48,238 nucleotides of DNA from Acetofilamentum sp. (lineage in GTDB: Bacteria > Bacteroidota > Bacteroidia > Bacteroidales > DYOH01). The position numbers and the translations under genes are program-made. Where the stretch lies: the NCBI GenBank assembly GCA_020720625.1, contig DYOH01000016.1, forward strand, positions 1 through 48,238, read 5' to 3'. Below, in pieces: positions 10,265 through 30,478 of the stretch; position 1 is the first letter of the stretch, and each line of letters begins with the position of its first letter. The notes beneath the pieces were generated by a model that saw only the letters and a program-made list of their open reading frames with translations, made no database searches and had not been told where the DNA came from.

Positions 10265-11446
10265 ATGAAAAAGTATATAGTAGGACTATTAATGATCTTA
10301 ATGAATTTTCAAATATTTGCTCAAAATCAAGCTGTTCAGTCTATTAATGGATTTGGATTGGCTATGTACAAACAACTCCCCAAAGACACCAATCTTTTTA
10401 TCTCCCCTTTTAGCACTAATGCTGCATTAACAATGGTTTTTGCCGGTGCATCGGGCAAAACAGAATTAAATATGTCCTGGATTATGAAAATTAGTAATAA
10501 TAGCGAACACATCAATTCGTTTAAAGAGGTGCAAAAATCAATTCTTAATGCCAATAACAACAATATTATAAAAGTAGCTAATTCTTTATGGTATCAGAAA
10601 GATTATAATTTTGAGAAAAACTATATCAAATTTATTACCGATAGTTTTGATGCCTTTGTTGAAAAAACAGACTTTGTTGAACTGGAATCAAGAGAAAAAG
10701 CCCGAAGAAACATTAATGCCTGGGTTGAAAAAAATACCGAAAACAAAATCAAAGATTTACTCGACCCTACAGTACTTACACCACAAACACGTATGGTTCT
10801 TACCAATGCCATTTACTTTAATGCAGCATGGGAGCACTCATTCGACGAAAATAAAACCCGACAAGATATTTTCTATCTCAACAAAAGCGAAAATGCCACC
10901 ATCGATTTTATGCACAAAAACAGCGATTTAGCCTACATGGAAACCGATAGTTTTCAGGCTGTGGCTATACCTTACAAAGAAAATGCGCTCTCTTTTCTCA
11001 TTTTTTTACCCAAAGATATTGAAGGGCTTCAAGAACTTGAAAATAAACTAAACGATAATTTTGTTCAACAATTTTTCGCTCAGCATTTTTTAGAGGCTAC
11101 TTCGCTTACCATTCCAAAATTCAAAATGGAATATTCTGTAGAATTAAGTAAAACACTTATAAATATGGGAATGGACAATCCTTTTTCCGGTGAAGCTGAT
11201 TTTTCGAAAATAAATGTTGATAAAGAAATAAAACTAGACAAAGTAATACATAAAACATTTATCTCAATTGACGAAAAAGGTACCGAAGCTGCCGCTGCTA
11301 CTGCCGCTGTTACAGTTAGAAAAACTTCTATCGGCAACTTAAAAGAAAAAACGTTTAAGGCTAATCATCCTTTTCTGTTTGTAATTGTGGACAATAAAAC
11401 CAAAGCCATTTTATTTATGGGCAGGTACGCTCAGCCGGAAAACTAG
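10265..11446 (+). CDS. Secreted serpin (serine protease inhibitor)
   Basis: A 393-residue serpin with a signal peptide (residues 1-19, ending IFAQ). Family features include FISPFSTNAALTMVFAGASG near the start, NAIYFNAAWEHSF in the middle and HPFLFVIVDNKTKAILFMGR at the end. The reactive-centre loop hinge is GTEAAAAT at residues 339-346, with the small residues required for loop insertion, so it should be inhibitory. Counting from the P15 glycine (339) as in alpha-1-antitrypsin, P1 is Lys353, P2 is Arg352 and P1' is Thr354, which predicts trypsin-like target proteases. Length is normal. It has no lipobox, so it should be released to the periplasm or beyond. It stands alone with no protease gene next to it. 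Confidence 0.93.
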   Translation: MKKYIVGLLMILMNFQIFAQNQAVQSINGFGLAMYKQLPKDTNLFISPFSTNAALTMVFAGASGKTELNMSWIMKISNNSEHINSFKEVQKSILNANNNNIIKVANSLWYQKDYNFEKNYIKFITDSFDAFVEKTDFVELESREKARRNINAWVEKNTENKIKDLLDPTVLTPQTRMVLTNAIYFNAAWEHSFDENKTRQDIFYLNKSENATIDFMHKNSDLAYMETDSFQAVAIPYKENALSFLIFLPKDIEGLQELENKLNDNFVQQFFAQHFLEATSLTIPKFKMEYSVELSKTLINMGMDNPFSGEADFSKINVDKEIKLDKVIHKTFISIDEKGTEAAAATAAVTVRKTSIGNLKEKTFKANHPFLFVIVDNKTKAILFMGRYAQPEN

Positions 11447-15592: not shown

Positions 15593-16030
15593 TTAAAAAA
15601 TATTTATGGGAATTTTGTCTATTCTTCGCATGTGTCTTCCGCCTTCGAAATCGGTGGTAAGAAAAGTATCTACAATTGCATTGGCTTCTTCTTCGGAGAT
15701 AAATCGCGCAGGTAAACTACAAATATTGGCGTCGTTATGATATCGCCCTAAACTGGCAATTTCAACATTCCAGCATAAAGCTGCCCTTATACCCTGATGT
15801 TTATTTACTGTCATATTAATTCCGTTTCCGCTGCCGCACAAGGAAACACCACAATCTACCACACCATTTTCAACAGCCTCAGCCATTGGGTGAGCAAAAT
15901 CCGGGTAATCTACAGATGCATCGGTATGTGCTCCAAAATCTACTACTTTATATCCTTTATCGCTTAAATGCTTTGCCAAACTCAACTTAAGCTTATATCC
16001 TGCATGATCGCATGCAATTCCAATTCTCAT
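15593..16030 (-). CDS. rpiB: Ribose-5-phosphate isomerase B
   Basis: Interconverts ribose 5-phosphate and ribulose 5-phosphate in the cytoplasm (pentose phosphate pathway). I chose the Met at 16030, which gives a 145-residue protein opening MRIGIACDHAGY, the family N-terminus; a start six bases upstream is possible. Visible motifs are DHAGY, the active-site loop LCGSGNGINM with the catalytic cysteine (residue 65 in this numbering), and YHNDAN with the active-site histidine. Length is normal. It is the first gene of a two-gene operon with the Rrf2 regulator and lies next to the candidate replication origin. Confidence 0.93.
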   Translation of the reverse strand: MRIGIACDHAGYKLKLSLAKHLSDKGYKVVDFGAHTDASVDYPDFAHPMAEAVENGVVDCGVSLCGSGNGINMTVNKHQGIRAALCWNVEIASLGRYHNDANICSLPARFISEEEANAIVDTFLTTDFEGGRHMRRIDKIPINIF

Positions 16031-16525
16031 ACACATATATTTATTTTTGCAAAGGTATAAAAACTAATGCATACTATAAGGTCTTTTTTTATAATTTTTG
16101 AGCATCATTTTCTGTTATTGCTTTGTATTTCAATAGCTAAAAAATTGTTAATAACTATTATTTTTTTTTTAGATTCAAAGTCAATTCAATAGGCTATTAA
16201 CTTCTCATTAAGATACAATTACTTAACTAGTTACAAAATTGTTAATACCATGTTTAAAACCTAGACTTTTATGGTGGATAATTATCTATATTAAAACTAA
16301 TACTTTTTTTTGGTGCTTTACGCGATATAATTATACCGAACAAATTTTTAATTACACAATAGCTTTCCTAATTTTTCTATGCTTTTTTGTCCACAAAATT
16401 TTTATTTTCTTTCCACATCTCATTCTTTTTCTTTTTTCCACTGCTTAGTTTATTAGCCTTGTTAATAACTTTTAATTTATAGCTAATATTTAATAATTTA
16501 GCAGCAAAATGCCTATTAAATACCC

Positions 16526-16534
16526 TGTGGATAA
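16526..16534 (-). promoter_or_regulatory. DnaA box (perfect consensus)
   Basis: tgtggataa, the reverse complement of ttatccaca, the classical high-affinity DnaA box. Confidence 0.65.
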
Positions 16535-16570
16535 CTTATGAATAAAAAAATAAATCTAATTTCGCAAAAG

Positions 16571-16579
16571 TTTTCCACA
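16571..16579 (+). promoter_or_regulatory. DnaA box (consensus)
   Basis: ttttccaca matches TTWTNCACA. It lies 36 bases from the end of the box at 16526-16534, in opposite orientation. Confidence 0.55.
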
Positions 16580-16643
16580 GAACTAACAAACTATTATCAT
16601 CATCATTTTTTATATAAATTAATTAATAAAGAATATAATATTA

Positions 16644-17645
16644 ATGATTCAGAAAGAGCAAGTAAGACAAAAAGGTTTTATAGACAGAGCTATTCCAAAT
16701 GTAGATATTATTTCGGAAATAGGCCGGATGAAGAAGGAAAAAAATGCTGTTATCTTAGGGCACTATTATATTGATTCGAGATTGCAGGATATTGCCGATT
16801 TTGTTGGCGATAGTCTGGCTTTGGCACAACAGGCAGCAAAAACTGATGCTGAAATTATTTTGTTTTTGGGTGTGCATTTTATGGCCGAAACTGCCAAGAT
16901 TTTGTCGCCGCAGAAAAAAGTGCTTTTGCCGGATTTTAATGCCGGATGTAGTCTGGCAGATTCTGCGCCTGCTGATGAATTCGAAAAATTTGTGGCGGCG
17001 CATCCCGACCATCTTGTTATTTCTTATGTGAATACTACAGCGGCAGTAAAAGCGCTTACTGATATTGTTTGCACTTCGTCTAATGCTGTGCAGATTGTTG
17101 AAAGTTTGCCTAAGTATCAGAAAATAATTTTCGGTCCGGACAGAAATCTTGGTCGTTATATTCAGTCGCTAACCGGTCGGGATATGCTTATCTGGAATGG
17201 TGCATGTCATGTGCATCAGCAATTTGATGTTAACGAAATTGTGCGTTTAAAGTTGGAGTACCCGCAGGCTAAAGTACTGGCTCATCCGGAATGTAATCAA
17301 ACTGTGCTGATTTTATCCGATTATATTGGTGCTACGAGTGGCATACTCAAGTATAGTATACAAGATAGTGCTAAGCAATATATTGTGGCCACTGAAAGCG
17401 GAATTCTGCATCAGATGAAAAAGGCCAGTCCGGATAAAATATTTATTCCTGCTCCGCCTGAGAAGATTAACGATGTGTCTTGCGCCTGTAATGATTGTAT
17501 TTATATGAAACTTAATACAATTGAGAAAGTTTACAATACGCTTAAATATGAGTATCCGGAAGTGGAGTTGGACGAGAGTTTGCGTTTAAAGGCTTTTCGT
17601 TCGATAAATAAAATGTTGGAAATTTCTGCTAAACTTGGTTTATAA
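16644..17645 (+). CDS. nadA: Quinolinate synthase A
   Basis: A 333-residue cytoplasmic [4Fe-4S] enzyme that condenses iminoaspartate with dihydroxyacetone phosphate to quinolinate in de novo NAD synthesis. Likely cluster cysteines are Cys102 (GCSLADSAP), Cys188 (GACHVH) and one of the C-terminal C-x-C-x-x-C group (279, 281, 284), probably Cys284. The opening motif AVILGHYYID is typical. The start chosen is the first in-frame Met and gives the usual length. The stop overlaps the next start by one base (TAATG), so nadA leads an operon. nadB and nadC are not in the window. It is the first gene to the right of the candidate origin. Confidence 0.95.
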   Translation: MIQKEQVRQKGFIDRAIPNVDIISEIGRMKKEKNAVILGHYYIDSRLQDIADFVGDSLALAQQAAKTDAEIILFLGVHFMAETAKILSPQKKVLLPDFNAGCSLADSAPADEFEKFVAAHPDHLVISYVNTTAAVKALTDIVCTSSNAVQIVESLPKYQKIIFGPDRNLGRYIQSLTGRDMLIWNGACHVHQQFDVNEIVRLKLEYPQAKVLAHPECNQTVLILSDYIGATSGILKYSIQDSAKQYIVATESGILHQMKKASPDKIFIPAPPEKINDVSCACNDCIYMKLNTIEKVYNTLKYEYPEVELDESLRLKAFRSINKMLEISAKLGL

Positions 17646-30403: not shown

Positions 30404-30452
30404 ATTTAACCTAAAAATACGTTCCACGTGGAACGTATTTTTAGGTTAAATT
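30403..30452. promoter_or_regulatory. parS site 1 within a 50-bp perfect palindrome
   Basis: The core gttccacgtggaac (30421-30434) is the ParB/Spo0J-binding parS palindrome. It is centred in a perfect palindrome that extends 25 bases each side, from the last base of the mnmG stop codon to 30452. The long arms could also form a terminator hairpin for mnmG. Confidence 0.85.
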
Positions 30453-30454
30453 CG

Positions 30455-30478
30455 ATTTTGTTCCACGTGGAACAAAAT
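30455..30478. promoter_or_regulatory. parS site 2
   Basis: The 16-mer tgttccacgtggaaca (30459-30474) is a near-canonical parS; it sits in a perfect 24-bp palindrome. Its centre is 39 bp from the centre of site 1. Confidence 0.88.

Follow-up and report, generated by a model that had tools for sequence, protein, structure and literature searches.

The rpiB-nadA Intergenic Region

The window, i.e., the whole stretch of 48,238 nucleotides analysed here, is one contig (C130) of a 3.8 Mb draft genome in 143 contigs, from an order in which the named relatives are Bacteroidetes metagenome genomes. A gene-free gap of 607 bp with a GC content of 22% (16037–16643) separates two divergent genes that recur as neighbors of this site: rpiB on the left (ribose-5-phosphate isomerase B, 15593–16036, minus strand; NCBIfam TIGR01120 above cut-off) and nadA on the right (quinolinate synthase, 16644–17645, plus strand), homologs of which were found in 127 of 149 genomes of the order. 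An earlier note on this DNA had proposed the gap as a candidate replication origin without dnaA, and its description of an AT-rich, gene-free region between diverging genes holds. The genome encodes one DnaA (TIGR00362 above cut-off), located on another contig (C14), and with dnaN on C78 the usual (though not required) adjacency of dnaA and dnaN is not found. Reading the gap as an RNA element was rejected, as no Rfam family matched.

DnaA Boxes in the Gap

The number of DnaA boxes depends on the consensus that is chosen. Using the relaxed form TTWTNCACA, the gap holds two exact boxes, at 16526 (minus strand) and 16571 (plus strand), and four with one mismatch (16273, 16387, 16409, and 16434), spanning 307 bp together (16273–16579), in agreement with the earlier count of two consensus and four one-mismatch boxes within about 310 bases. 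With the same consensus, this cluster is the densest 310-bp stretch in the window, and the whole gap, including further one-mismatch boxes, has 11 matches where 3.0 are expected (P ∼0.0005, Markov-1 resamples). The strict form TTATCCACA occurs once exactly and three times with one mismatch against an expectation of 0.17, a number reached in none of 5000 resamples; the intergenic clustering of boxes is thus beyond chance.

From left to right, the dispersed boxes comprise a divergent box TTATTAACA (16146–16154, minus strand), a further divergent box of the same motif family, GTATTAACA (16240–16248, minus strand; TGTTAATAC on the plus strand), the one-mismatch boxes TTATCCACC (16273–16281, minus strand) and TTGTCCACA (16387–16395, plus strand), two weak boxes, CTTTCCACA (16409–16417) and TTTTCCACT (16434–16442), both on the plus strand, a second copy of TTATTAACA (16460–16468, minus strand) and a perfect box TTATCCACA (16526–16534, minus strand). 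The sequence TTGTTAATAAC occurs at six sites in the 3.8 Mb of the genome, two of them inside the gap. Unbiased k-mer counting in 11 gaps pointed to TGTTAATA, which describes the TTATTAACA-like boxes and was counted 25 times where 1.8 were expected, and the 600 bp upstream of nadA in 29 relatives of the order contain 46 TTATTAACA-like copies against four of the mirror-image control. The canonical TTATCCACA alone was rejected as the conserved signature, being mostly absent from the gaps of relatives. Genome-wide, TTATTAACA is found 49 times and its mirror image 174 times, which suggests avoidance outside the origin or possibly a coding bias.

A Conserved Unit of Tandem Boxes and Trinucleotide Repeats

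Relatives share a common layout near nadA, consisting of two tandem boxes, a GC-containing step and trinucleotide repeats, with the consensus AACAGTATTAACAGnCTATnATTATCATCAT (alignment A1). The corresponding unit of the window (16571–16610, plus strand) reads TTTTCCACA-GAACTAACA-AACT-ATT ATC ATC ATC ATT TTT. Box 1, TTTTCCACA, lies at 16571–16579 and is directly followed by box 2, GAACTAACA (16580–16588), which is GTATTAACA in relatives in alignment A1, while the DnaA-trio-like repeats (16593–16610) start 13 nt past box 1. They are adjoined by a very AT-rich stretch (16611–16643), a candidate for the site where the strands would first open. Upstream of nadA at three loci of relatives (L028, L095, and L111), an inverted repeat resembling CTGTTTTTTTAAAACAG overlaps box 1 of the unit.

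The closest known counterpart is the basal unwinding system (BUS) of Bacillus subtilis oriC, formed by DnaA-boxes 6/7 and DnaA-trios (PMC6669920, PMC8287927). The published rule asks for a DnaA box, a spacer of at most 16 and at least three repeats 3′-NAN-5′ (PMC8287927), and published spacers peak at 10–13 with a limit of 16 (PMC6669920, PMC8287927); the gap offers the box at 16571, a spacer of 13 nt and six repeats. At least five repeats beside a box with at most one mismatch arose in 1.8% of resamples. Both systems have two tandem boxes in the same orientation, a short spacer and repeats with a middle A on the bound strand, and box 2 is kept as a TATTAACA-like sequence in relatives. They differ in that box 2 of the gap is of this TATTAACA type and that its repeats, in the register that keeps the middle A, read 3′-TAA/TAG-5′ rather than the consensus 3′-GAT-5′, a motif that is degenerate in the literature.

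A weak sequence model of the unit (64 positions) was trained on 16 genomes, a set that excluded the window and its family. Its top match in the 3.8 Mb of the own genome is the rpiB-nadA gap (16567–16621, plus strand; E 0.0012), followed by a match at 0.076; these E-values are rough, and the top place leans mainly on the ranking. At the thresholds used, the model matched in 56 of 149 genomes of the order. In 35 the best match lies 10–350 bp upstream of nadA on the same strand, and 27 of these 35 are not among the eight training genomes contained in that sample. Across the class, 20 of 295 genomes gave a match at the threshold used, so that most were missed, and rpiB or nadA stood beside the match in 17 of 18 newly fetched loci. 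Some weaker matches fall in coding sequence or come without a flip of the skew, and one genome of the same family as the window (G002) had no match at E 0.01.

Strand Bias and Neighboring Loci

The suggestion of a strand-bias change at the gap, which rested on four hand counts of G versus C that all proved exact on recount, is real. The cumulative G−C minimum of the window falls on base 16604, inside the trinucleotide repeats, this minimum being a regional one given the 143-contig draft. Third codon positions sorted by gene strand separate the effect of replication from that of gene orientation: plus-strand skew at these positions is −0.14 (plus-strand genes) and 0.00 (minus-strand genes) left of the gap, and +0.23 and +0.24, respectively, to its right. 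Gene orientation was rejected as the cause of the skew, since the change affects genes of both orientations.

Other landmarks of an origin-proximal position lie to the right of the gap. The parS site TGTTCCACGTGGAACA (30459–30474) lies at 14 kb; the genome contains no other full match to TGTTNCACGTGNAACA, and a search allowing up to one mismatch returned this site alone. Of the parS pair that had been described, this perfect site stands and the second is a degenerate parS-like palindrome, CGTTCCACGTGGAACG (30420–30435). The identities of mnmG, about 12 kb from the candidate origin, and rnpA were confirmed.

The Site in Related Genomes

The earlier note had asked whether the gap is conserved in relatives, and the divergent order indeed recurs in many Bacteroidota genomes; in most genomes with this arrangement the skew changes sign at rpiB-gap-nadA. 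Genomes of relatives were sampled in 20-kb stretches for skew. In three complete genomes (G134, G341, and G301), the best match of the unit model lies at most about 15 kb from the sampled third-position skew minimum, with raw skew agreeing in two of the three; since some stretches in all three were placed because of the model match, positions in these genomes are resolved to about 20 kb, a value that partly reflects the sampling. The match in G134 is at 1,652,795 and the sampled minimum at 1.640–1.645 Mb, with the maximum (3.72–3.91 Mb) roughly opposite. In G341 the match is at 2,547,305, with rpiB as its neighbor, and the minimum at 2.545–2.550 Mb; rpiB is also the neighbor in G301, where the match is at 3,004,077 and the third-position minimum at 3.000 Mb. 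Raw skew is weak in the latter genome and has its minimum at 2.725 Mb, 280 kb off, and none of the counted boxes occur in the gap of G301. Two drafts (G144 and G065) show a third-position flip at the rpiB/nadA site. G144 has full parS matches at distances of 3.4 and 11.5 kb from the unit, G065 at 13 kb, and G134 has one-mismatch parS sites at 10–20 kb.

The unit is not always found with both of its usual neighbors. In G134, nadA is located at 1,844,208, 190 kb away, and no rpiB was detected beside the unit, whereas G040 and G024 have the unit next to rpiB with another gene in the place of nadA, and their short-range skew still flips. These placements indicate that the unit tracks the switch of strand bias and not nadA. 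The arrangement is not universal either, as the complete genome G317 of the same order lacks the signature: no significant match of the model was found, and its rpiB, at ∼1.24 Mb, is near the skew maximum. The origin of G317 must look different or have moved.

An Origin of Replication or Another Element

Based on the DNA sequence, we regard the rpiB-nadA gap as very probably the chromosomal oriC of this Bacteroidota genome, with a probability of roughly 0.92. The original proposal is thus supported by the conserved arrangement, the skew flips, the ranking of the unit model, the three complete relatives and the parS site 14 kb away.

Diverging genes and an AT-rich gap would also be expected if the region were merely the divergent promoter region of rpiB and nadA, with the conserved motifs acting as operators or elements of the promoters, and with gene orientation accounting for the skew change. 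We consider this very unlikely, given that in G134 the unit coincides with the global skew minimum although nadA is far away and no rpiB was detected nearby, that the short-range skew flips without nadA at the site in G040 and G024, that third-position skew changes in both gene orientations and that no Rfam family matched. The true origin could, even less probably, lie at another cluster of DnaA boxes, upstream of dnaN (C78: 16085–16104), upstream of parAB (C131: 8031–8080) or beside dnaA (C14), and at the first two sites a pair of perfect TTATCCACA boxes, separated by 11 bp, does occur together with TTATCAACA. However, the skew showed no switch of sign at the clusters upstream of dnaN and parAB, neither these clusters nor the dnaA contig appear among the 16 matches of the unit model up to E 10, and the only full parS match sits on the contig of the window. 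It appears extremely improbable that a recent inversion or rearrangement, and not the origin, produced the switch as a local artefact. Local skew reversals do occur in G134 (e.g., at ∼1.95–2.05 Mb), so that a switch alone is no proof, but in the window it coincides with the conserved unit of boxes and trios, and it recurs at rpiB/nadA in other families.

Taking the gap as oriC, its working may be pictured by analogy with studied origins. DnaA, supplied from its distant locus, would bind the dispersed TTATCCACA-like and TTATTAACA-like boxes and, from the tandem boxes at 16571–16588, load onto one strand of the repeats at 16593–16610, thereby opening the adjoining AT-rich stretch. Helicases would be loaded there, and forks would leave to the left through rpiB and to the right through nadA, while ParB bound at the nearby parS would segregate the new origins.

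Comparison with Known Origins and Implications

Origins remote from dnaA are reported to be common in Bacteroidetes (PMC4755523), and one between rpiB and nadA is accordingly nothing unusual in kind. The predicted oriC given there for Prevotella intermedia and other Bacteroidetes (DoriC) likewise combine a skew transition, several DnaA boxes and a distant dnaA; flanking rpiB/nadA genes, TTATTAACA boxes and a trio unit are not mentioned in the passages on them. Ori-Finder predictions for Flavobacteriaceae (PMC11278836, PMC12843772) similarly place the origin near mnmG and not at dnaA, whereas here the gap itself is resolved, from rpiB to nadA; in PMC11278836, text and figure legend conflict over the gene that marks origin and terminus. 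We found no report of the rpiB/nadA origin site, the TTATTAACA DnaA box or the unit, and the conserved site, the divergent box and the unit appear unreported within the literature searched, a scope that did not extend to most subscription journals or the DoriC database.

We lean towards the view that much of the class Bacteroidia retains a single ancestral oriC, which has rpiB and often nadA at its flanks and carries a 50-bp unit of two boxes plus trios, with a lineage-specific box (TTATYAACA) and an altered trio register, and that this oriC could then serve as an origin marker even in fragmented metagenome genomes. Origin prediction in Bacteroidota usually relies on skew, and pipelines often take dnaA as the starting point of the sequence, a wrong choice for this genome. 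With a conserved rpiB-nadA unit, origins could be located at single-base precision, including those of draft metagenome genomes. Such a unit would also make read-depth estimates of growth rate more accurate and give a defined DNA for testing origin opening by the DnaA of this phylum.

Additional Observations

Just upstream of dnaN (L208; C78, 16085–16104), the pair of perfect TTATCCACA boxes at a distance of 11 bp and the accompanying TTATCAACA possibly reflect control of dnaN by DnaA or are the remnant of an older origin. A similar arrangement of paired perfect TTATCCACA boxes and TTATCAACA precedes parA-parB (L187; C131, 8031–8080), where a coupling of DnaA to segregation is possible. The window further encodes a clear serpin (10265–11446; PF00079, E 2.6e-104), a protein family uncommon in bacteria.
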